Virus record (IMG/VR): IMGVR_UViG_3300044699_000127 | Coordinates: 1-42,468 of that record | DNA: 42,468 nucleotides | Direction: 5' to 3' (one strand) | Source: a virus | Shown here: one piece after another, positions 4,485 to 42,085 of the stretch | How positions within the stretch are numbered: the first letter of the stretch is position 1 | Layout of the letters: every line of letters starts with the position of its first letter | Program-made: the position numbers and the translations under genes | Notes under the pieces: generated by a model | Database searches by the model: none | What the model saw: only the letters and a program-made list of their open reading frames with translations | Told to the model about the DNA's origin: nothing

Positions 4485-4724
4485 TCAGTTCACCCCTACA
4501 AATCGGAAGTCGGGATACGACCGCACTGTTTTGTCCAACCGCTCCTGCTCGCGCTGCAACGCCCGGATGCCTGCCTTTAAGAAGGCGAGTTCGTTGTCGG
4601 CGTCTAGCCGGGCTTTCGCACGGTTCGGTGCAGAGACGACCAGCTCCAGCCATAAGGGCTGAGGGCGGCCACCGAGGATCTTGCGGTGGGTGAAGAAGTA
4701 TTTGGTGTGGAGTTTAGGTTTCAT
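4485..4724 (-). CDS. First gene of the leftward early operon, hypothetical
   Basis: 79 residues from ATG 4724: KLHTKYFFTHRKILGGRPQ at the N-terminus, a helical charged middle (AFLKAGIRALQREQERLDKT) and FRFVGVN at the end. It is the promoter-proximal gene of the leftward operon. The 15-bp operator TAAGGTGTTGCCTCA lies only four bases before the ATG and there is no Shine-Dalgarno. The -10-like element lies about 15 bases upstream of the start, so the mRNA would have a leader of only a few bases. By position it corresponds to lambda N or a PL-proximal gene. No family is recognised. Confidence 0.65.
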   Translation of the reverse strand: MKPKLHTKYFFTHRKILGGRPQPLWLELVVSAPNRAKARLDADNELAFLKAGIRALQREQERLDKTVRSYPDFRFVGVN

Positions 4725-4728
4725 GTTG

Positions 4729-4770
4729 TGAGGCAACACCTTATAGTTAGAGCTGTAAGGTGTCAACCTA
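4729..4770 (-). promoter_or_regulatory. Left operator pair and early promoter (PL-like)
   Basis: On the minus strand TTGACA (-35-like) and TATAAG (-10-like) are separated by 15 bases. Operator 1, TAAGGTGTTGCCTCA (4729-4743), covers the -10 region. A related imperfect palindrome, TAGGTTGACACCTTA (4756-4770), covers the -35. The exact 15-mer of operator 1 recurs at 6431-6445 before the Cro-like gene. This is the expected layout for repression of both early promoters by one regulator. The short spacer is atypical and may reflect a sequence error. Confidence 0.65.
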
Positions 4771-4893
4771 TTTCAAGACAAAAGCGTGGGTTCTCTCGTG
4801 GTAGCGTTCTGGGCGTCGCGCTAGGCGGAATCAAAGGCGGCTGGGCGTCGCGCTAAAGTAGTCGAGCGCGGCGGCAGTGTAGGTCAACAATAG

Positions 4894-4986
4894 CTACTTT
4901 TTCGGCTTTTGTTTTTTCTTCGACTTGGGCCTCGGCATGAAAAGCGCTGCGAAGTCCTCGGGGTCAAGGGGGATCAGGGTGGGCAT
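4894..4986 (-). CDS. Candidate 30-residue small protein
   Basis: The ORF begins 16 bases after the stop of the exported-protein gene, behind a GAGGAAG site. It starts MPTLIPLDPEDFAALF and ends in a run of Lys (PRPKSKKKQKPKK). The contrast between an acidic/hydrophobic start and a basic tail looks like coding sequence. It could equally be untranslated 3' sequence of the repressor operon. Nearby the 14-mer CTGGGCGTCGCGCT occurs twice (about 4810 and 4841). Confidence 0.4.
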   Translation of the reverse strand: MPTLIPLDPEDFAALFMPRPKSKKKQKPKK

Positions 4987-5002: not shown

Positions 5003-5793
5003 CTACTGTTCTTCGATCGACACGTCCCAATCGCCTGACGAGTTGATCGTCAGATAGTATTTGCCGGGCTTCGTGTGAACAGTCGAGATCTCGGCGCCTG
5101 CGCCTGTCTTGTTTGCAGCGAGACTGACGAGCCCGCCCGAAGAATCATAAACGTAAATCTGAAGAATTCCGGTTGATGAAAACTTCCAATTCACTCGCCA
5201 CTCGGCCGTGCTGGTCGTGAAAGATTCGGTCGTCTTAATGCCAGAACCTTTCCATGACGCGAGAGCGTGCCAGCCTGGAGCCGCCGCAGGCGCTTTTGCG
5301 TTCATCGCCGCCGACCTCGCTTCGGCAATCTTGGTACGATTCACAGCGACCCATTCGTTGAGTTGCTTCGTTATGTTTGCCGCCAGATCCTTCCAAAACC
5401 ATTGAGCGCTTATCGACAGTTCATTTCGGTAGTCGGTGCCTTTAACTCGAAGGGTTGCCTTGATGGTTGGCGCGGTCTGGTTGGTAGTCGAGGTGTTCGC
5501 CACGACGCCGCCGAAAATGCCGCGCCCCACGGCTGTTTGCGTTGCCTGCCCCACGACGGCCTGCCAGAAAATACGACTTCAAGCGTTAGATCGGCACTGT
5601 CCGGAGAGAACGTCCACGTCAAACCCTTATAGCGCGCAAAGGCCTCCCGGATATCACTGACGGAACTTTCCAGACGCTGGGAATCCACGAAGCCTTCCTG
5701 AGATTTTATGGCGAATACATGAACACGAACCTCACTCTGCGCTTGCGCCGCGTTCGACATCAAAAGGATTACCAGCAGCATCCCCAGCTTCAT
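5003..5793 (-). CDS. Exported protein, candidate lysogenic-conversion factor (one frameshift)
   Basis: The ATG at 5793 follows AGGGGG. The N-terminus MKLGMLLVILLMSNAAQAQS is a classic Sec signal peptide with an AQA cleavage site. The mature part starts with a compact domain (EVRVHVFAIKSQEGF). A frameshift near 5555 joins it to a second part with GRGIFGGVV, then a helical middle with LAANITKQLNEWVAVNR, and a C-terminal beta-rich domain with YYLTINSSGDWDVSIEEQ. The protein is about 263 residues and probably periplasmic or secreted. It lies directly downstream of the CI-like repressor on the same strand, between the two operators, the place of rexAB in lambda. It is therefore likely to be expressed in lysogens. 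The C-terminal fold may be a small jelly-roll, but that is inference. Confidence 0.75.
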
Positions 5794-5851: not shown

Positions 5852-6346
5852 TCAACCACGGTTTGAGCTTTCCTGTTTCTTTAGTTTTCGATTGGTCTGT
5901 CCGCTTCCCTGCGGTCCCGTCCGCGCGTCCTGGCCCTCCCGTTTCCCGGGGTCCTCTGGGGCCTCGCGTGGGCGTCCCCACCGTCGTTTCTTCGAGAGAG
6001 CGCGATCCGCCATTGCATCAAGAAACTCACGGACGACGACCAATGTGGCGTCGTGATCTGACCGGACTATCGTCTCTAACATGGTGAACAGGTTGTCGTG
6101 TTTCGCCAGGACCGGATCCTTGTGATTTGATCGGTTCCCAGCAAGCCAGTCCTCGGGGGTTACCTGGCCGCAGGCGAATAGCAGCTTTTCGTAGTTGTCT
6201 GGGGAAACGTTTTGCTTTCCTGCCTCGATGTCGTGAATCGATTTGGTGGTGAGCTTCACTTTGTCGCTGACGTCGGTAACGGAGAGTTGGGCCAGACGGC
6301 GATAGTTTTTAAGTTCCTCGCCGAGAAGTTGCCGCAGAGTCTTCAC
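5852..6346 (-). CDS. CI-like repressor, Xre-family HTH
   Basis: 164 residues from a GTG start at 6346. Residues 4-66 form a typical Xre/HTH_3 domain: LRQLLGEELKNYRRLAQLS, then VSDKVKLTTKSIHDIEAGKQ as helices 2-3, and NYEKLLFACG as helix 5. A helical region follows (LFTMLETIVRSDHDATLVV). After residue 120 the sequence becomes basic and Pro/Gly-rich, either a disordered tail or a frameshifted end. There is no S24/LexA peptidase domain, so RecA-stimulated self-cleavage is not expected. It is divergent from the Cro-like gene with the operator between, and it is followed by an exported protein in the same direction. Confidence 0.85.
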   Translation of the reverse strand: MKTLRQLLGEELKNYRRLAQLSVTDVSDKVKLTTKSIHDIEAGKQNVSPDNYEKLLFACGQVTPEDWLAGNRSNHKDPVLAKHDNLFTMLETIVRSDHDATLVVVREFLDAMADRALSKKRRWGRPREAPEDPGKREGQDARTGPQGSGQTNRKLKKQESSNRG

Positions 6347-6430: not shown

Positions 6431-6445
6431 TAAGGTGTTGCCTCA
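6431..6445 (+). promoter_or_regulatory. Right operator (PR-like)
   Basis: TAAGGTGTTGCCTCA is identical to operator 1 at the left promoter (4729-4743, opposite strand). It ends three bases before the ATG of the Cro-like gene. TACTAA, overlapping its start, is a possible -10, with TTGCAG about 14 bases upstream as a weak -35. The implied leader is under ten bases, with no Shine-Dalgarno, as at the left promoter. Confidence 0.65.
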
Positions 6446-6448
6446 TAT

Positions 6449-6685
6449 ATGGATACGCAACGTCAAACCATCGGGGACAACCTGCGGCGCATTCGGCGCG
6501 ACTCGGGCAAAACAATGGCAGTACTCACAAAAGCAGCCCAGTTGACGCCGGGATACTGGTACGAGGTCGAGCGCGGTGAAGTGAACGTGACGATTGACGC
6601 GTTGCAGTCTATCGCCTCGGCGCTCTCGGTCACCGTCCTCGACTTACTGGAGCCGGCCAAGCCGAAGAGGAGGGCGTCCGCGTAA
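6449..6685 (+). CDS. Cro-like repressor, Xre-family HTH
   Basis: 78 residues, intact, with one Xre/HTH_3 domain filling residues 6-66: IGDNLRRIRRDSGKTMAVL, then QLTPGYWYEVERGEVNVTI as turn and recognition helix, and LQSIASALSVTVLDLLEP. The tail is basic (KPKRRASA). It is divergent from the CI-like gene, 102 bp away, with the shared operator directly before its ATG. It is the natural candidate for a Cro-type regulator of the rightward early operon. The next gene begins immediately after its TAA. Confidence 0.9.
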   Translation: MDTQRQTIGDNLRRIRRDSGKTMAVLTKAAQLTPGYWYEVERGEVNVTIDALQSIASALSVTVLDLLEPAKPKRRASA

Positions 6686-13533: not shown

Positions 13534-13585
13534 GCAAGCTCACGAGTCGGGCCGAGCCCGACATAACAAACATGGAGGTTTGAAA

Positions 13586-14095
13586 ATGAAAGTCTCAGTG
13601 CTGAAAATCGCAATACCCATTCTGGCCGTGCTGCTGGCGTCTACCGCCGGCGCCGCCATCACAACGAACACGGCCGCGCGCGTCGAAGCGGTGCGCCTGT
13701 GGGGCCCAACCGGATCGATCCGCCAACGGCAAACCGGAACGTCGGCGACCTGGACCTACGAATCGGGCGTATACACGCGGTTTGGGTTCGAGACGCGAGG
13801 CGCGGGTACCGGTGGCTGGGCGGCCGCATTCAACCCGCTGCCGGCGGTTGGGTTTCGTACTCCGTTGCCGCAGGAGGGAGAGGACGCCGTCGGCAGGGTC
13901 ATGCGCGTGGGTCGGATCCAAGTGTCGCGTGTAACTGACGTGGCGCCGGAAATTTTGGTGCGCGCCTCCGAGAATGCAAGGAACGGCCGCGATGCCGAAG
14001 AGCGTCTGGGAAAGTTTTTAGACGCGGTGTGTTCGGTCGCACGGCAAGCTTGCGAGACCGCAGCTCAAGACTTCGGGGTTCGGATCCTCCCCTAA
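13586..14095 (+). CDS. Exported protein of unknown function
   Basis: 169 residues. ATG 13586 is preceded by GGAGG; an upstream in-frame ATG (13532) is less likely. The N-terminus KVSVLKIAIPILAVLLASTA ends in an AGA-type signal peptidase site. The mature part is beta-rich and Gly/Arg-rich (RLWGPTGSIRQRQTGTSATW, then GRVMRVGRIQVSRVTDVAPE) with two Cys near the C-terminus that could form a disulfide. It has its own possible promoter and lies among accessory genes, so it may be a second moron acting in the periplasm or outside the cell. It is intact. Confidence 0.7.
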   Translation: MKVSVLKIAIPILAVLLASTAGAAITTNTAARVEAVRLWGPTGSIRQRQTGTSATWTYESGVYTRFGFETRGAGTGGWAAAFNPLPAVGFRTPLPQEGEDAVGRVMRVGRIQVSRVTDVAPEILVRASENARNGRDAEERLGKFLDAVCSVARQACETAAQDFGVRILP

Positions 14096-16197: not shown

Positions 16198-16900
16198 GTG
16201 CGCGTCGCGCTCTACGCACGCGTCTCCACAAAGCAGCACGGCCAGGACGTCGAGACCCAGTTGCAGGCGCTGAGACATGGCCAAACAACGGGGTTGGAAG
16301 ATCAGCGGGAGTACTCCGATCGAGGATGGTCGGGAACGAAGGAACACCGACCGGAGCTCGACCGGCTGATGGCCGACGCAAAGGCCAAAAAGTTTGACGT
16401 GATTGTCTTCTGGCGCTTCGACCGATTTGCCCGGTCCCTCAAGCATCTCATCCAGGCAGCGGACGACCTCAAGAGCTGGGGAGTCGGATTCGTGTCGATG
16501 ACCGAGGGGATCGATACGTCGACGCCGGCGGGCCGGATGGTGTTTCAGATCTTCGGCGCGATCGCAGAGTTCGAGCGGAACCTGATCCGAGAACGGGTTC
16601 AACTCGGTGTCGACCGGGCCCGGCGGGACGGGAGGCGGCTAGGGAGGCCGCCTAAGTACGCGACACGCGAAAAGGAAATCGCCGCGGCAGTCGGCAAACA
16701 GCACAACGTCAAAGCCGTCGCCAGGCAGTTCGGCCTCGCAAGGTCGACAGTCGGGGCATCGTCGCGAGGCAAAGGGCTGAAAGAGGTAAAGCCAAAACTG
16801 CCCGCAAGGCAGACGGGGCAAGGTTGGGCGCGAAAGAGGTAAAGAAAAGGCCGGCCGAGGTAAAGGCGAAGGCGGTAAGACGAAGAAGAAGGCAGCGTGA
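16198..16900 (+). CDS. Serine recombinase (resolvase/invertase family)
   Basis: GTG 16198 directly follows the upstream stop. The N-terminus VRVALYARVSTKQHGQDVET has the catalytic Ser10 within YARVST. Conserved blocks follow: EYSDRGWSGTKEHRPELDRL, FDVIVFWRFDRFARS, GIDTSTPAGRMVFQIFGAIA and EFERNLIRERVQLG, then a GRPPKYATREKEI linker and an HTH (NVKAVARQFGLARSTV). Paired shifts near residues 27-40 and another near residue 185 interrupt the frame; the true end is a Lys/Gly-rich tail stopping at 16900. About 234 residues is the small resolvase/invertase size, not a large serine integrase. It probably inverts or resolves DNA rather than integrating this phage. Confidence 0.9.
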
Positions 16901-20748: not shown

Positions 20749-21089
20749 ATGCCCGGACGTAAACCAAAGCCGACACATATGCACCTGGTCGAGGGACGTT
20801 TAACGTCACCCGCCACAAAGATCGGACCGATGAGCCCGCCGTCAAGGAGCCGATCGCGAAGCCGAAGTCCTTACGTGGCCGCGCTTCGAAAATCTGGGAT
20901 GAGGTGATGGAGTTTGCGTACTGGCTGACGGCGGCCGACAGCCACACCCTGGCGATGTGGTGCAGGCTCACCGCCCAGGCCGAAAAGGATTTTAAGGGTT
21001 TCACGGGCTCGATGCTCTCGAATCATCGAGCCTATGGGTCCGTGTTGGGGTTCGATCCGTCGTCACGTTCGCGCATCAATGATCGGTAA
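20749..21089 (+). CDS. terS: Terminase small subunit, P27 family
   Basis: ATG 20749 opens PGRKPKPTHMHLVEG; one missing base near 20803 shifts the frame to TFNVTRHKDRTDEP, the RHxxRxxEP block of P27-type small terminases. The rest (KSLRGRASKIWDEVMEFAYW, LAMWCRLTAQAEKDFKG and SSRSRINDR) matches the family. About 113 residues. It recognises the phage packaging site and recruits the large subunit encoded next. The terS-terL order and the HNH gene upstream are standard. Confidence 0.85.
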
Positions 21090-21109
21090 AGCGCTGGGTA
21101 AGAAAACTG

Positions 21110-22855
21110 GTGAAAAAGAAAAGAGCAATAAGTTCTACGCCTGATCCGGTGACTCAATACGCTCTGGACGTCACGAGCGGAAAAGAGATTGCCGGACCTC
21201 TGGTGCGATTAGCCGCGAGCGGCATCTGCGCGACCTGGCGATGGCCCCCCGGCGTGATTGAAATGGGAATGGACCGAGTGGAGGTCTGCGCCGCGCGGTA
21301 CCGGAAAGTACGTCGCGGATTTCTTCGAGAACGAGCTCGTGTTGGCCGAGGAGATTCCGTTTGTCCTGGCGCCGCCGCTGATGTTTATCATCGGCTCGTT
21401 ATTCGGCTGGAAGGGTCCTGACGGATATCGCCGCTTCCGCATCGCATTCATCGAGATCGGCAAAGGCAATGCGAAGACAACGCTGGGTGTGGCCTGGGCC
21501 TGTACATGCTTGTCGCCGACGGGGAGCTGACTGCGGATTGCTACATGGCGGCCGCCGAAAAAGACCAGGCGAAGATCCCGTTCAAGGATTCCGTCAATTT
21601 TCTCAACCGTAACCAGCGGCTCGATTCCGTAATCAAGCGCAGCGGCAGCGACGGTCAGGAGTGGAATCTGGCGTACCTGAAAACAGGATCCTTCCTGCGC
21701 CGATCGCGTCAGAATCCAAAGGCCGCGGCCGCTCCGGATTCCGCCCCCACTTCGTGCTGCTGGACGAACTGCACGAGCATCCAACCGCCGCCATGGTCGA
21801 CCTCGCCGAAGCCAACCTGAAGACCAGGACCCAGCCCCTGGTGTGCAAGATCACGAACTCTGGTGTCGTGGATCCAGGCGCGGTCTGCTTCCAGACCCAC
21901 GAGCATGGCGAGCGGATGCTGCAGGGGATCGATCCGAACGATGACTCCCGCTTCTTCTACATCGGCGGCCTCGACAAAGGCGATTCGTACCTGGATCCGG
22001 CGATCCGAAAGAAAGCCAATCCGATGTATGACGTGATTCCGCGGATGGACCGTTACCTCGACGATGCCGTTGCAACAGCGAAGGGCATGCCGTCGAAAGT
22101 TTCGGTCATTCGCCGGCTCAATTTCTGCGAGTGGGTCGAGAGTGCGGATCCGTGGGTAGACAAGGAGATTTGGGACTCCAATAGCGGCGAGGTGGATCTC
22201 AAGTCCTTGATCGGCCGCCCGTGCTTCGGCGGGCTCGATCTATCGAGACGGGTGGATCTCACCGCGCTCGTCCTTGTGTTTCCTGACGATGTCGAGTTGG
22301 TGCGCGACAAGGCCGACGAGGAAGCGCCGCGCGGTTCGTGGATGTCTTACTGTTCGCGTGGACGCCGCCGAGGGAATTCTGGACCGCGAGCACCGCGACA
22401 AGGCGCCTTACTCGCAGTGGATAAAAGAAGCGTTCTCTTAACCACGCTGGCAAGACGATCGATTACAGCTTCGTTGCGGTCAAGATCGGTCAACTCGCGA
22501 AGCTCTACGATATTCAGTTGGTGGCGTTCGATCACTGGCACTTCGACGAGATGGAGAAGGCGCTGAACGAGGCGTCGGTCCACATCACGGCAATGGACCA
22601 TGCCCAGGGATTTGCCGGCATGAATCCGGCGATCGAAGTGACTGAGGAAGATTTAAAGAACGGCGCATCCGGCACGGCGGCAATCCACTCCTGACATCCG
22701 CAGTTTTCAATCTGAAGGTCGAGAAGAATGCCGCGGCGCTCCGATCGTTCGAAAAGCGGAAGGCCACAGGCCGAATCGATCCAGCGCTCTCGCTGGTGAT
22801 GGGACGCCACGCCGCCGAGACGGCAGAACCGCAGGCTCTTACGCCTGCACTGTGA
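21110..22855 (+). CDS. terL: Terminase large subunit (HK97/Terminase_1 type, frameshifted)
   Basis: The frame starts at GTG 21110. The N-terminus has DPVTQYALDVTSGKEIAGPL; then PFVLAPPLMFIIGSLFGWKG, a Walker-A-like IEIGKGNAKTTLG, and Walker B HFVLLDELHEH. The nuclease domain shows CFGGLDLSRRVDLTALVLVF with its catalytic Asp, and the C-terminus NLKVEKNAAALRSFEKRKAT, then IDPALSLVMGRHAAE. About 580 residues. Shifts near 21230, 21500, 21700, 22360 and 22690 interrupt it. The ATPase powers DNA packaging through the portal and the nuclease domain cuts the concatemer. This is the clearest family assignment in the packaging block. Confidence 0.95.
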
Positions 22856-22875
22856 TCTAACGTGGGAGGAGCGGC

Positions 22876-23034
22876 ATGAACAAGCTGAGAGACTTGATGC
22901 AAAAGATCGATTCCGCCGATGTAGGGCTCGCGCTCGTTGGTGGCGGAGTTGCTCTGATCCATTTCGGGGCTGCTCTAATTATCGTCGGAGCAATCCTGGT
23001 TCTTCAGGTGCGCCCCTTGCGGACGTGGCTGTAA
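22876..23034 (+). CDS. Small membrane protein between terL and portal
   Basis: 52 residues, intact, from ATG 22876 behind GGGAGGAG. A charged N-terminus (NKLRDLMQKIDSADVG) precedes one long transmembrane segment (LIHFGAALIIVGAILVL). The stop TAA overlaps the portal ATG as TAATG. It could be a minor membrane protein or a holin candidate; the sequence does not decide. Genes of this size in this position are common in HK97-type phages. Confidence 0.7.
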   Translation: MNKLRDLMQKIDSADVGLALVGGGVALIHFGAALIIVGAILVLQVRPLRTWL

Positions 23035-24562
23035 TGGCGCTGTTAATCAAGAACGCCACGTACAAGGAAACCACCGGATGGTTTGCAGATTGCTTCGCGG
23101 AGGACAGGAGTCTGACTCCGGCGCGTCGTGAGCCAACGCACGGCGATGACGATGGCCGTGGTCTGGCAATGTGTGAACTGGCGCGCGAAGATGTACGGGC
23201 ACCTCCCGCATAAGCTGATGGAAAACGTCACGATGTTCGGAAGGACGCTCAGCAGAAGCCTGGAATCATTGGCTGTTTCCTATCCTTCACTCCTCGCCAA
23301 ACCCGACCTTGACTGCGGGCGGCGTACCACGGTTTGATTTCCGCGGATCTACACCTTGACGGAAACTCCTATGCCTGGATCGACCGTGGCTCGAACACCG
23401 GGCGCATACGGAATCTCTGGCGCTTCCTGCCCAATATGATGAGGCTCGCCACCGAGCGGGGCGTGATCGATTACTACGCACGCCGCAGCGACGGGACAGA
23501 GCAGCGATTTGAAGCGAGCGAGATCCTGCACATCCGCGGCCTGGGTTACGACGGCGTGCGTGGCTACAACCCGATTCACTTGATGCGCGAAGAACTCGGA
23601 TGGACCTTAGGGACTCGGAAGTTTTCGTCGAAATACTACCGCAACGCGTTCAGGCCAAGCGGTCTGCTCATCTCTCCGTCCGTGCTTAAAGAGCCAGCAA
23701 AATCCGGGCTGATCAATGCCCTGCGCGAAAGCGGGAAAGAAGGAGGGCTCGCGCTGATAGAAGGCGCTCTCGATTTCAAACCTATGGGTATCCCGCAAAA
23801 CGACGCTCAGTTCCTCGAGACCATGCAGTTCCAGGACGACCGGGTGGCCGGATCATGGAAGTGTACCCGCACGAGATCGGCATCATGCGCCACATGACGA
23901 ACAACAACGTGGAGCAAATGACGATCTCCTCGGTAACGCGGAACCTTTTACCGTTCTCGGTCGGCGTTGAGCAGTGGATGGAACTGCAACTCCTCTCCTA
24001 TGCTCGTCTTCGGGGCGTGGCGGCGGCACAGAGCGCGAACGGTACTCGATCCGGTCTAACTTCAACGCCTTGCTTCGCGGCGACACAGCGTCCCAGACAG
24101 CGCACATTACGGCCATGTTCGACCGCGGTATTTATTCCGGCAACGACGGCGCGGCCTACCTGGGGAATTCGCCCTACGAAGGCGGCGACACCCGGTTTAT
24201 CAATCGCGCCTACGGACCTGTGGACATGGCTGGTGAGTGGTCGAAGGCCTCGCAGAACAATCCGTCACCTGCGGAGCCGGATCCGGATAAAGGCGAGACC
24301 GGCAAGAAGGCGGCTAAGCTCGCGCTGGCCGTGTTCCGCGGGGGCGTCGGCGCACGCTCGCACGCAAGGGCGACCGCGAGAAGGCCGTCGCGTCGGTCTT
24401 CGGGGAGTTCCTCGAAGGTCTTGGATTCTCCGCGGACTTCGCCAGTGAATATCTTGGAGCTCTGGCGAAGCGCTCGAATCATGGACGGAGGCGGAGGCAG
24501 GAAGCATCGCCGAATCGGAAGTTACTCGCGCCATGGAGGCGCTCACAAGGAGGCAGCAGTGA
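23034..24562 (+). CDS. Portal protein, HK97 family (frameshifted)
   Basis: The start overlaps the previous stop. The N-terminus is broken several times before 23330 (LIKNATYKETTGWFAD, then VSQRTAMTMAVVWQCVN). A long intact stretch follows: LDGNSYAWIDRGSNTGRIRN, EILHIRGLGYDGVRGYNPIH and MGIPQNDAQFLETMQFQDDR. After a shift come PHEIGIMRHMTNNNVEQM and SIRSNFNALLRGDTASQTAH, the DNA-tunnel and clip region of HK97 portals. The C-terminus ends ESEVTRAMEALTRRQQ, with a stop overlapping the protease GTG. About 508 residues. It forms the dodecameric ring at one capsid vertex through which DNA passes. Confidence 0.93.
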
Positions 24563-25264
24563 AAAACCATCGAGGTTTGATCGTCAACGGGAGCCCGGTC
24601 AAAACATGGAAGGACCGCTGGAAGAAATGGGCGGCTGGGCGAACATCCCCAACCGGAAGTTTGAAGCCACGAAGCAGGACGACACTGCAGAGATTCTGAT
24701 TTACGAACAGATCGGCCAGTCGTGGTGGGACGATTCCGGCGTAGGCGCCAAGAAATTCGTTGAGGACCTGCGGGCTCTCGGGATGTGAAGACGATCAACG
24801 TCAGGATCAACTCCCCCGGCGGCGACGTGTTCGAAGGCGACGCGATTTACTCGGCGCTCGCCCAACACAGCGCAACCATCAACGTGTTCATTGACGGATT
24901 GCCGCGTCAGCCGCGTCTTATATCGCGATGGCCGGCGACACGATCGCGATCGCCGAGCACGCCAAATTCATGATCCATTCCGCGTGGGTTTTGCTATGGG
25001 TAACGCCGACGAGATGCGCGCGACTGCCGAAATCCTCGACACCGTCGATAAGTCAATTCGACTGATCTACAAGGCGAGAACCGGCAGTCTGATTCCCAGC
25101 TGAAGGACTGGATGAAGGCTGAAACATGGATGATCGGGCCAGGAAGCTGTCGAGAAGAAATTCGCGGATAGCGTCATGAAGGCCAAGGAACGGCCGGAAG
25201 ATGCGGTGCAAGTTCCAATCCGCGACCTGATGCGCATGCGGCTGGAGTTAGCGAGGAGCGCTTA
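24559..25264 (+). CDS. Prohead protease, ClpP-type (S14, frameshifted)
   Basis: GTG 24559 has AAGGAGG five bases upstream and overlaps the portal stop. After shifts near 24640 and 24785 the core reads TAEILIYEQIGQSWWDD, INVRINSPGGDVFEGDAIYS and INVFIDGL. Then AASAASYIAMAGDTIAI carries the catalytic Ser, and AKFMIHSAWGFAMGNADEMR the catalytic His. An Asp near LDTVDKSIRLIYKARTG would complete the triad. The C-terminus ends MRMRLELARSA. About 235 residues. It cleaves the scaffold part of the capsid protein during prohead maturation, which fits the delta-like domain seen in the capsid gene. Confidence 0.92.
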
Positions 25265-25393
25265 AAAAAGATTCCGTGACACCGGCAATCATCGGGTGTA
25301 GGGTTCAGTCTGGATTCATCTTCGAAGTTGTGCGGGATGCGCTGCTCCAGGAGAGCAAGCAACGACGAGGAAGCAAAGATCCGAAGTTCCAGG

Positions 25394-25450
25394 AACGGCG
25401 GAGGCTTCGCAAAGGTGAAAACTTTTGTTGAGCCTCCGCCGTTTTCGTTT
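25394..25450 (+). terminator. Strong hairpin terminator between protease and capsid genes
   Basis: A 13-bp perfect stem (AACGGCGGAGGCT / AGCCTCCGCCGTT) followed by TTCGTTT. The 24-base loop contains a second possible hairpin. A terminator here would separate capsid expression from the upstream packaging genes, or attenuate read-through. Confidence 0.7.
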
Positions 25451-25551
25451 ATGGCGTGAGGCAGGAGAAAACGCCATGAACAGTATTCGAGATAAGAAGC
25501 GTGGTGGGCCGCCAACTTCTGCACCCTCACATTAAATGCGCTGAAAACCAA

Positions 25552-27036
25552 ATGGTCGGGCTGGGTCTCGGCCTGGGATTAGTGGGGTGCCTGGTTATGG
25601 CACTCACTGTGGCCCTGCTGCTGCACGCGGCAACCCTTGACGCGCAAGCCGCCCCGGTTGGATTCGCGATCCTCATCAGTGATCAGTTAAAGCAAAGTCG
25701 CGCAACCAAGGCTGAAGAGGCCCAAGCCATTTACAAGGCCGCCGACGACGCCAAGCGTGCGCCAACCGCCGAAGAGAAAACCAAGTTCGACGGTCTCATG
25801 GTGGAAGTCGACGCCCTCTGCGCCCGCATCGAATCCCAACTCAAGATCGAAGCCGTCCTCAAGGACAAACCGGCGGACAGAATCCCGGCGCTCCTAAGCT
25901 CGACGACGACCACAAGCCAGTGATCCTGTTCCCTCGCCATTCCAGCCTGAAGGCGTTCGCGCGAAGTCCTACGGCGGCAGCATCCAGAAGGCGAGGAAGC
26001 CGCTTATCGGACCGGCAAGTGGATGCAGGCGTTCTTCGGCAACGAGAAGGCGCGGCAGTACTGCCAGGAGAACGGCGTGTTCTCCTACGGCACGCAGCAA
26101 GTCATCTACAACGTGCAGGAAGAGGGTTCCACCACCACGGGCGGCGCTCTGGTTCCTGATGAAATGGAGCGCTCGATCATCGACTTGCGCGAAGAGTACG
26201 GCGAGTTTCGCAAGTACGCCAAGATCGTGCCGATGGGCTCGGACTACAAAACGCAGCCCCGGCGCACCAGCGGGCTGACGGCCTATCCGATCGCAGAAAG
26301 CGCGGCCTTCATCGAATCCACAAAGGGATGGGACAGCGTCTCGTGGACCGCGAAGAAGTGGGGAGTGCTGGCGAAGTACTCTGACGAACTCGGGGAAGAC
26401 GCGATCATCAATATTGCCGACGATCTCACCGACGAGGCGTCTTACGCTTTCGCGGTTGCGGAAGATAACGCCGGAATCAATGGCGATGGCACCGGCACCT
26501 ATAACGGCATCACCGGCCTGCAGAAGAAGTTCTTCGACGCCAACGCGGCGGCCTGGACCAAGGTTGTCGTCTCGACGGCCACCCATGACCTGTTCAGCGA
26601 AATCGACGGCGACGACATCGACAAGCTGATCGCGCTCTTGCCTAAGTACGCACGCCGGAACGCCAAATTCTACATATCGCCAGTCGGCAAGACGCTCGTA
26701 TTCGACCCGATCCTGCGGGCAGCCGGCGGAAACACTCAAGGCGACATTGCCAGCGCGCACCAGCGAAATACCTCAGCTACCCGATCATCGAAGTGGTCGC
26801 GATGCCGAGCGACGTGACCGCCCTTGATGAAATCGCGATGTTCTACTTCGCGATATGTCCATGGCTGTCGGTATGGGCGTGCGGCGCGGTGTCACGTCAA
26901 GATCCTCAGCGAGCTCTACGCAGGCAACGGCCAGATTGGCGTGATCGCCTCCGAGCGGTTCGACATCAACGTCCACAGTATCGGCTCGGCCGCAGCGGCT
27001 GGCCACTTGTCGCCTACGTCGGCCGAAACCAGCTAA
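25552..27036 (+). CDS. Major capsid protein, HK97 fold (frameshifted)
   Basis: The N-terminal delta/scaffold-like helices are ISDQLKQSRATKAEEAQAIY, then EEKTKFDGLMVEVDALCARI. After shifts near 25900-26010 the mature region is intact: GNEKARQYCQENGVF, GGALVPDEMERSIIDLREEY, SGLTAYPIAESAAFIESTKG and YISPVGKTLVFDPILRAAGG. Another shift follows near 26760, then SYPIIEVVAMPSDVTALDEI. The end is INVHSIGSAAAAG with TAA at 27034. Above the scaffold part an in-frame hydrophobic leader (VGCLVMALTVALLLHAATL) appears from ATG 25552; it may belong to a separate small membrane ORF fused here by an indel. The true start is therefore uncertain. About 400-490 residues. It forms the capsid shell. Confidence 0.93.
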
Positions 27037-27045
27037 GGAGGGATC

Positions 27046-27517
27046 ATGTATTCAGTACCGAAACCCGTCATGGTCTTTGCGATACGTCCGCCACGGCCGC
27101 CGGCACTCCAGCAGCAGGGCGTGATCGACCGGAAGGGCTACAACTTCGTCAGATCGCGCTGCGTCAGGCGACCATCGCCGCGGCATCCAACCGTCCAACC
27201 ACGATGAAGATTTCCGAGTCGGACATCACGGATGCAACCGGCTCGCGGCGATTGTGAAATTCACCGGAGGCACACAGACGTCGACCTCCATCGGCTTCGT
27301 GATCGCGACCTCCACCGAACACTGCCGTAACCCACATGACCGTGTTCAATATCGACTGCCGCGGCAGGAAGCGCTACCTGAAGCTGGAAGTGGTTCCCGC
27401 GACGACTCAGTCAACGGGGCGTCCGCCATTATGTCGCGCGGGGAAGTCGCCCCGGTCAGCGCGGCGAATGCTGGCGTGCTGCAGTTGATCGAAAGGCTAA
27501 GGAAGAACCGCGGATAG
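27046..27517 (+). CDS. Head-associated conserved phage protein (frameshifted)
   Basis: ATG 27046 has AGGAGG three bases upstream. The reading is MYSVPKPVMVFA, then DTSATAAGTPAAG, VIDRKGYNFVQIALRQATIA, KISESDITDATG, AIVKFTGGTQTSTSIGFVIA, VFNIDCRGRKRYLKLEV and MSRGEVAPVSAANAGVLQLI. Beta-rich proteins with the pattern 'RGRKRYLKL ... SRGE.AP' directly after the capsid gene occur in several siphoviruses and may decorate the capsid. At least four shifts are present. About 157 residues. The exact role is unknown. Confidence 0.65.
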
Positions 27518-27587
27518 GCCATCGAAGCCGAAAAGCTGGATACCCTGCCACCTGCCGCGGTGTTCGTCAGGGGTGATTGAGGGATCA

Positions 27588-28726
27588 CATGAAATTGAAC
27601 ATTGGGACGTTGTTGATCACGAAGGCTACAAGTCTTACGACATCAAGCGTGGCAGCGGCGACGCATCGAAGATCGATGCCGTCGATGCAAGTTTGAAGAA
27701 GTCCCGCCTCCCACATCCTGGAGCACTTTCCCCACGGACGGATTCTGGACGTGCTTCGGGAGTGGGTTCGGATTCTAAGGCCGGTGGCGTTCTCAAGATC
27801 GCCGTGCCGGACTTCAAGCAGATCGCCGATCAGTATTTAAGCGGGCGCACCGATCAACACGATGGGCTATGTCATGGGCGGACAAGTTGACGAACACGAC
27901 TTTCACAAGACGCTCTTCGATCATGAAGTGCTCAGTGAAGCATTGCGAGACGCCGGGTTGATCGCGATTCGCCGCTTGGCAGGATGGACATCAGACGATT
28001 GCTCGCGCCTTCCGATCTCACTGAACCTTTGCGGGACCAAGCCCCGATGTCTGGCCGAAAGCGGCGGCCGTTCTCAGCTCCGCGCCTCGGCTTCAACGAC
28101 TTCTGGGACTGCGCCATGCTGGAACTGGCGCCGCTGATGCCGTTCCGACGGGTGACGGGCGCTTATTGGGACCGCGACCTCACGCATGCGATTGAGGAAT
28201 CGATCGCCGACCACGACCGGAATGGATCCTCTGCTGTGATTACGACACGGTCTTTCACGCGCGATCAAATCTATACCTTGCTTGATCTGGCGGTTCGTTA
28301 TCCACATGCCGATGCCATCGCGCCGCTACAAACCGCGCGTCATCACGCGGCGCCGATGTTCACGGTACCGGCAACGACGGCAATCTCATCTCGGGAATGG
28401 CCAGAGAGGACCTCGCGCGCGGGGAAATGCTCCGGCCGAAAACCGCGCATTTTCGGGCTGACGCTGGCTGCGGGTATCGAAGCTGCAGGCGATGCCGAAG
28501 CCTTGGTACAACCGCACGTAAGACCTAATGGCGAGAGCGACAAAGATCCCGACGTGCAGTTCTGGCACAACTGGAAGGCCGCAGGCAACACGCTATACGT
28601 CGCGCTGCGCGTTCCGGTCGGTCACTGCGACCTGATGGTGCGCTGGCCCAGCCTGAACCTTCGAAAGCGATGTTTCAACAGCCCAGAGTTCACAAGAACG
28701 GAATACCCGAAAACGTTTGGAGATAG
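27588..28726 (+). CDS. Methyltransferase-glycosyltransferase, probably fused (frameshifted)
   Basis: ATG 27588 opens KLNIG, the motif-I strand of class I SAM-dependent methyltransferases. YKSYDIKRGSGDASKIDAVD follows, then (shifted frames) SHILEHFPHGRILDVLREWV and GGVLKIAVPDFKQIADQYL, with the LEHF and PGG marks of that family. GQVDEHDFHKTLFDHEVLSE links to RLGFNDFWDCAMLELAPLMP. The second half has DLTHAIEESIADHD, then CCDYDTVFTRDQIYTLLDLA, the Asp-x-Asp metal-binding motif of a GT-A glycosyltransferase, and PHADAIAPLQTARHHAAPMF. The end is QPRVHKNGIPENVWR and TAG 28724. No internal start is evident, so one polypeptide of about 380 residues is likely, though two genes are possible. It probably modifies a capsid protein or a host glycan. 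Confidence 0.75.
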
Positions 28727-40872: not shown

Positions 40873-41179
40873 TCATCTCCACCTTTCGGTCTCTAAATCT
40901 TTCCTGGATAGCAGACGGTTCCGCTGGTTCATCGGCGGCAATTCTTCAATCGGTAGGGGACCAGCTCCGCGCACCTGACCGCCCGGGTTTATTCCTAACT
41001 GGTGCGCCCTTCGGATCGCACAGGTCAGGGGATGGCTGCCCCCTCCGACGGGGCCGCGGGCTTGTCGGTACCGCAAGTGAAGGATCGGATTCCACGTAAC
41101 AACCGCCGAGCCACTGCTTTCCTTTCGGCTTGTCAGGATCTGCGAATGATAGCCACCACCAGTCCATACCAGGCTTCAT
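40873..41179 (-). CDS. Hypothetical protein (frameshifted)
   Basis: ATG 41179 overlaps the ParB stop as ATGA. MKPGMDWWWLSFADPDKPKG and KQWLGGCYVES lead, after a shift near 41060, into HPLTCAIRRAHQLGINPGGQ and PPMNQRNRLLSRKDLETER. About 102 residues. The same type of Trp-rich opening is common in small phage proteins. No family is recognised. Confidence 0.6.
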
Positions 41180-42085
41180 GGCCGCTTCTTTCCGACTGCA
41201 GACGTCTGCACTTTCTTCGGGGGATGCCAGCGCGCGTTTGCTGCGGTCCTGGCGGAGGCCTGCCGCTCCGATTTGGTCATGACCTGGTTCCGCCGGCGGA
41301 CGCCTTTGCTGCCGAGTATGCTCAGATGGCTCCTCAGAATTTCGGCAATCGCCGCGCGCGCCTCCGGATCTCCGCCAGCGGCGGCACGAAGCATGGCGGT
41401 AGCGTGATCGCGGTGGGTGAAGTGGTTGTTCGTCCGGGGACCAGGCGCGGGCGGCATCGGCGTTTTCTCGTTGTTCGTCACGATCCGGCCCAGCTCGCGG
41501 ACGGACAGAGTCGCGAACGCCGCGGCCGCCTCACCTGTTGCGTAAGGCTCCTGTTGTCCTGCCGGCAGCCGGGCGAGCAGGATCGCATGGCCCGCAGTCA
41601 TCTTCTTCGCGTAGAAAAGTTCCTGCAGGCCTGCGACCAGCCTCAGCAGCTTCAGCCGATCGTAAACGTACTTCTCTGACTTGCTGATCCGCCCGGCGAT
41701 CTGAAACGCCGTCATCTTGTGCCTCTCCATCAGCTCCCGGTAGCCGTTGGCTTCGTCGAGCTCGTGGACGTCCTCCCGCTGCAGGTTCTCGACCAGCTGC
41801 AGCTCCGCCACGGTCAGGTCGTCGAGGTCGCGCTGGATGGCTTTGATGGTGGTCTTACCTGCCCATAGCGCTCCCCGGTACCGCCGTTCGCCGAAGATGA
41901 TCTCGAACCGGGAGGGCCTTACTGGGTGCGTGCGGACGAGAATCGGCTGCGCGACATCGTGGGCTTTGATGCTGTCGGCATCTCCTGAATCGATTCGTCG
42001 GTCAGATGTTTGCGCGGATTGGTCGGCGACGCTCGATGAGAGCGAGCGGTAGGGCCGGGTGGTAGATCTCTTCTGCAGACGTCAT
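41176..42085 (-). CDS. parB: ParB-like partition protein (two frameshifts)
   Basis: ATG 42085 overlaps the upstream stop as ATGA. The first 25 residues (TSAEEIYHPALPLALIERR) lead, after shifts near 42025 and 41981, into NPRKHLTDESIQE, SIKAHDVAQPILVRTHP and FEIIFGERRYRGAL, the ParB box with GERR. ELQLVENLQREDVHELDEAN, the second ParB box, follows. Then comes the HTH part (MERHKMTAFQIAGRISKSEK, YVYDRLKLLRLVAGLQELFY). The C-terminus is basic (KSERQASARTAANARWHPPK). About 302 residues, the typical ParB length. It binds a centromere-like site and, in CTP-dependent ParBs, slides on DNA. No ParA is encoded. A copy of the 16-bp palindrome lies inside its own 3' end. Confidence 0.88.
41197..41212. repeat. 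16-bp palindrome, copy 3 (one mismatch)
   Basis: CTGCAGACGTCTGCAC: the 14-bp core TGCAGACGTCTGCA is intact and one outer base differs. It lies in the 3' end of parB, coding for VQTSA. A partial copy (CTGCAGACGTC) lies at the parB start, 42073-42083. Confidence 0.8.

Follow-up and report, generated by a model that had tools for sequence, protein, structure and literature searches.

Genes that lie between the repressor gene and the left operator of temperate phages supply many functions in phage defence and conversion, and few of them encode exported proteins. Among the exclusion systems with an exported protein, the Ltp type is defined by its ability to block DNA injection by superinfecting phages. 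The interval between the repressor gene and N is a known site for accessory genes (morons): it holds rexAB, and in phage BTP1 cI and bstA form one operon there (PMC7067206). Exported exclusion proteins of lysogeny modules include Ltp, and Glo has been described as a soluble periplasmic protein (PMC3952083). Here we describe an exported protein encoded at this position in IMG/VR virus record IMGVR_UViG_3300044699_000127, which was analysed over its whole stretch of 42,468 nucleotides (referred to below as the window).

The exported-protein gene and its frameshift

In the window, one minus-strand gene encodes a protein with an N-terminal export signal and two domains:

5003–5793, minus strand: exported-protein gene, 262–263 aa once a frameshift is bridged, identified from translations, the signal-peptide filter and C-terminal domain homology
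5740–5793, minus strand: signal peptide MKLGMLLVILLMSNAAQA, from the sequence and the signal-peptide filter, with predicted cleavage between AQA and Q
5327–5739, minus strand: N-terminal domain, about residues 19–155, beta-alpha-beta-beta-alpha-looking by eye, with no detectable relatives
5003–5275, minus strand: C-terminal domain, about residues 173–262, all-beta-looking, from an HMM match and alignment, found in small bacterial exported proteins too

The gene starts with ATGAAGCTGGGG at 5793, downstream of an SD-like GGGGGCAGGA on the minus strand, and ends with a TAG stop at 5003–5005. In the raw sequence it is split into two frames, with a break at about 5564–5567. Specifically, frame 1 can be followed to about 5567, ending ...SADLTLEVVF, while frame 3, two bases on, can be followed from about 5566, beginning FWQAVVGQATQT..., to the stop. 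The simplest account of the break is a single base missing from the T-run of GTATTTTCTGG (about 5564–5567). The joined protein has 262 aa as read and 263 aa with the missing base restored. The gene called at 5003–5793 in the original prediction is therefore a real minus-strand gene once this one frameshift is corrected, and the mention there of a "corrected sequence" fits the raw frame break and implies that the break had been noticed.

The frameshift is most likely a sequence error, because terminase, portal and capsid on this contig show the same kind of break, and two related phages have these genes intact. These two phage contigs (L002 and L010), found via terminase and capsid, carry an intact large terminase (578 aa), portal (553 aa) and capsid (465 aa). 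In the window, the best-matching terminase stretches are spread over all three frames, the portal follows the frame order 1-3-2-1 with no internal stop in the portions that match, and in the capsid the frame is lost over short stretches and then restored. Such repeated frame changes resemble the pattern left by indel errors, and a decayed prophage appears less likely. The same evidence bears on the possibility that the frameshift is real and the gene a true pseudogene with no functional product. Although the frame is indeed broken in the sequence as given, we consider this very unlikely, given the repeated frame changes in genes that L002 and L010 keep intact, with no in-frame stop in the portal segments, and given that the integrase gene and both HTH genes of the window are unbroken.

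At 20763–28211 and over most of the plus-strand late region, terminase, portal, protease and capsid are cut up by frameshifts that are absent from L002 and L010. Since the contig looks like uncorrected, indel-rich sequence, any claim that rests on a single ORF elsewhere in the window needs a check for frame breaks.

Signal peptide and mature protein

The protein begins with MKLGMLLVILLMSNAAQA, which comprises a charged start and a hydrophobic core, and its mature part begins QSEV... after a predicted cut behind AQA. A simple signal-peptide filter, applied to the whole window, retains only nine distinct ORF N-termini; that of the exported protein is among them, and is one of the few that also have a plausible SD. 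These features agree with the clear Sec signal peptide that had been proposed earlier. The predicted mature protein comprises 244 aa, with a pI of 8.75, no cysteine and no second hydrophobic or transmembrane segment (largest 19-residue Kyte-Doolittle mean, 1.01). Because it contains no cysteine, it is not a lipoprotein.

A second exported-looking protein (MKMKVSVLKIAIPILAVLLASTAGA...) is encoded at 13580–14095 on the plus strand, with a GGAGG-like site upstream, and has no family match at the thresholds used.

An N-terminal domain without detectable relatives

Searches of Pfam, NCBIfam, PHROGs and PDB sequences turned up no relative of the N-terminal domain, and neither did searches of phage and plasmid records, viral and genome contigs and 398 Pseudomonadota genomes; of these, the contig searches detect close relatives only. 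In viral contigs, no relatives are found with the exported-protein query P0001, with the N-terminal part or with a two-row alignment, and the full-length protein finds none in genome contigs. In tblastn searches of 50,697 phage records, P0001 has no match at E 1, and the full-length protein gives only chance-level matches up to E 10, none of them from Vibrio. With no relative in the phage records and viral contigs searched, there is no comparative support for a conserved linkage of this gene to the immunity region. The structural model of P0001 folded alone has a pLDDT of 51 and a pTM of 0.33; it was too poor for the fold searches (all E > 0.05) to be used.

The C-terminal domain is shared with small exported proteins of bacteria

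A profile built from four host proteins, with the window excluded, recovers the C-terminal domain at E 2e-13 and 48 bits, far beyond the best of 5000 shuffled controls (9.5 bits, E 0.28), which indicates that the domain is real and its frame coding. The homologous stretch spans about 85 residues and has no Pfam name. Weak matches to PPC, filamin and RTX-adhesin domains suggest a generic beta-sandwich only. Two hypothetical proteins were reached through weak matches, WP_023848982.1 (Ponticoccus) and WP_147429444.1 (Paracoccus), each of which has an apparent signal sequence and is encoded two genes from a PQQ-dependent methanol/ethanol dehydrogenase. Further relatives of the domain occur in two sampled Pseudomonadota genomes; in one of these (G146), the relative lies upstream of a frame that appears to encode a c-type cytochrome, as judged from a CXXCH motif. 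The members of this unnamed family of small exported proteins each comprise a CYD-motif stretch followed by the shared domain:

L023, 1830–2243: family member
L024, 1839–2243: family member
L027, 1237–1719: family member
L029, 1495–1989: family member

Three of these four loci lie near PQQ-dehydrogenase or cytochrome-like genes.

The phage protein and WP_023848982.1 and WP_147429444.1 are homologous over the C-terminal domain of about 85 residues and differ in the remainder: in the two host proteins, the N-terminal part consists of a short stretch with a CYD motif and a weak resemblance to VasI, whereas the phage protein has an N-terminal domain of 135 residues. The two also differ in setting, being host genes near PQQ-dependent dehydrogenases, unlike the phage-borne gene described here. 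The original prediction gave the mature protein about 243 residues and two domains, and both statements agree with the 244 aa found and with a C-terminal part that matches an independent protein family. It further stated that the protein resembles nothing recognisable, which is borne out for the N-terminal domain but not for the C-terminal domain.

Membership in the T9SS sorting-domain family was considered and not accepted. The protein scores 21.3 bits with TIGR04183 (cut-off, 23) and 17.7 bits with PF18962 of Pfam (cut-off, 27). The genome scan gave 23 bits, and the same loose search matches 13 of 14 control genomes, one of them above the cut-off.

The host relatives also bear on what the protein might do. 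It could serve lysogenic conversion without exclusion, in which case a change in the envelope (adhesion, metabolism or stress) would benefit the lysogen and leave superinfection unaffected; lambda Bor and Lom offer the comparison for such a role. We regard this as a real, if doubtful, possibility. It is in keeping with the presence of the C-terminal domain in small proteins that hosts export, several of which are encoded next to PQQ-dependent alcohol dehydrogenases or cytochrome-like proteins, and with the lack of any match to the PADLOC defence models; nothing speaks directly against it, and the N-terminal domain offers no clue.

A probable rex position within a lambda-type immunity region

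The region around the exported-protein gene comprises the following features:

5852–6346, minus strand: CI-like HTH repressor candidate, 164 aa, GTG start; PF13560 33 bits and PF01381 24.8 bits, both over cut-off
6449–6685, plus strand: Cro-like HTH protein, 78 aa, divergent from the repressor gene; PF13560 35.7 bits and PF13443 28.5 bits
7890–9101, plus strand: tyrosine integrase, 403 aa; PF00589 56 bits, phrog_1 E 7.8e-61
6431–6445, minus strand: OR candidate TGAGGCAACACCTTA, 3 nt before the ATG at 6449
4729–4763, plus strand: OL candidate, made up of TGAGGCAACACCTTA at 4729–4743 and an inverted partner of 11 nt; the leftward ATG at 4724 follows after 4 nt
4894–4986, minus strand: possible 30-aa gene MPTLIPLDPEDFAALFMPRPKSKKKQKPKK, directly behind the exported-protein gene with a 16-nt gap

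The sequence TAAGGTGTTGCCTCA occurs as two exact inverted copies, each of which lies 3–4 nt ahead of the gene that opens an early operon, and this 15-mer has no further copy in the window at up to 3 mismatches. The two 60-nt leaders share a longest common word of 15 nt, while about 19,900 pairs of random 60-mers never share more than 13. The OL candidate is a near-palindrome formed by 11-nt arms (4736–4746 and 4753–4763), with a TTGACA just upstream on the minus strand. The exported-protein gene follows the HTH repressor gene at a distance of 58 bp, on the same strand and between both operator-like copies, and the repressor gene is the one that is not directly preceded by the shared element.

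A lambda-type OL/OR layout, with both operators as candidates, is well supported by this arrangement. The HTH repressor and Cro-like genes are divergent and both exceed their Pfam cut-offs, and an exact 15-mer marks the putative operator sequence at both early promoters. A self-cleaving domain of the S24/LexA type is not found in the 164-aa repressor candidate, which matches HTH models only, so induction would probably not proceed by the usual self-cleavage. The tyrosine integrase indicates a temperate phage. The original prediction had placed the exported protein just downstream of the CI-like gene, in the same direction, between two operators and in the rex position. The adjacency and direction hold, the operators are real as sequence, in the form of an exact and unique 15-mer upstream of both early operons, and the rex position is well supported by the adjacency to the repressor gene, the strand and the OL/OR-like copies on either side.

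Two exact 15-nt direct repeats (CTGGGCGTCGCGCTA, 4809–4823 and 4841–4855, spacing 32 nt) lie in the non-coding stretch from the exported-protein gene to OL. A search for the pattern of operator plus ATG in viral contigs returned 7 stretches, which have no protein similarity to the window and are attributed to chance.

On the coding strand, no terminator-like site was found between the repressor gene and the exported-protein gene. A sigma-70-type scan found no promoter anywhere in the region and is thus uninformative as to a separate promoter in the 58-bp gap. Transcripts from the left early operon would run away from the exported-protein gene and those from the right one come from the opposite strand; read-through in the lytic cycle would thus not cover the gene in sense. 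This suggests the repressor promoter, in the lysogen, as the natural source of its message. It also makes a lytic role, as an envelope protein in lysis control or a virion-associated protein, extremely unlikely, even though phage lysis proteins also carry export signals. Consistent with this, the gene lies outside the late operon on the opposite strand, and no virion or lysis family match was found in Pfam, PHROGs or phage records; homology to a virion protein, which the original prediction had named as evidence against its reading, did not emerge from the phage-record, PHROGs and family searches.

Alternatively, the phage could have picked up an envelope gene from a host and carry it along as a passenger, without selection for any role. 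The host-type domain and the lack of relatives in the phage records and viral contigs would fit such an origin, but the gene sits exactly within the immunity region, has its own SD and is tightly spaced to the next small ORF, which makes a passenger quite unlikely. Genes of immunity regions are usually kept for functions in the lysogen.

Comparison with described systems

Like lambda rexAB and the BTP1 cI-bstA operon, the exported-protein gene lies directly behind the repressor gene, on the same strand, in the interval between the repressor and the left operator; no sequence relation between these proteins and the exported protein was found. To our knowledge, the RexAB and BstA proteins are not Sec-exported soluble proteins. 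Furthermore, the Rex system pairs cytoplasmic RexA with multi-TM RexB, whereas the locus described here encodes a single exported, soluble-looking protein with no TM segment and no family match.

Two exported proteins offer further comparisons. Glo, a superinfection-exclusion protein of Vibrio phage K139, is described as soluble and periplasmic (PMC3952083), and the likeness drawn here is to that description. Ltp of phage TP-J34 is likewise exported; its gene adjoins the CI gene within the lysogeny module and is transcribed in the prophage state. However, Ltp is a lipoprotein with a lipobox cysteine, and the protein described here, with no cysteine at all, lacks that lipobox and so would not be lipid-anchored in the way of Ltp.

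Phage relatives and other features of the window

Neither the repressor nor the integrase has relatives in the viral contigs searched. Relatives of the terminase occur at 42–45% identity in Yersinia, Serratia, Pseudomonas and Snodgrassella, and those of the integrase are distant; at these distances, the relatives in Gammaproteobacteria and Snodgrassella do not place the host. The window also carries an Rfam int-alpA RNA (RF02996, 27507–27573, plus strand, 42.5 bits against a gathering threshold of 35.8) in the structural region, far from the integrase gene. Besides the tyrosine integrase, there is a serine recombinase or DNA invertase (16198–16842, plus strand, phrog_125 E 8e-55). A ParB-type HTH protein (41176–41811, minus strand, PF17762 58.5 bits) may mark the distal end of the leftward operon, should the contig be circularly permuted.

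Discussion

The exported protein is probably an envelope protein expressed in the lysogen, as judged from the export signal and the layout of the immunity region. By analogy, it is most likely a soluble envelope protein that would act as a superinfection-exclusion or conversion moron and work in a way comparable to Glo or Ltp. We tentatively judge superinfection exclusion to be its likeliest function, even though the host relatives of the C-terminal domain adjoin PQQ dehydrogenases and not defence loci and PADLOC has no match for the protein, both of which count against exclusion.

In the model that we propose for exclusion, the lambda-type immunity region would hold the gene as a moron in the rex position, to be transcribed together with the repressor gene while both early promoters are shut. 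The protein would be exported through Sec to the periplasm of the lysogen, or to an equivalent outer compartment, where one of its two domains could attach it to a component of the envelope. Once docked, it would keep related phages from bringing in their DNA, in the manner of Glo in the periplasm and of the Ltp lipoproteins.

In kind, the protein would belong to the lysogen-expressed exported morons already described; what appears new in these searches is an orphan protein with a new combination of domains. It seems rather unlikely to us that superinfection exclusion by soluble periplasmic proteins has here a family of its own, in which a novel N-terminal domain, fused to a host-type envelope domain and made from the repressor transcript, would block the entry of DNA or the function of a receptor at the host cell envelope. 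The C-terminal half nevertheless ties this orphan to envelope proteins of the host, which makes it a concrete candidate to test, and the gene adds a phage example of a periplasmic domain that has no name.
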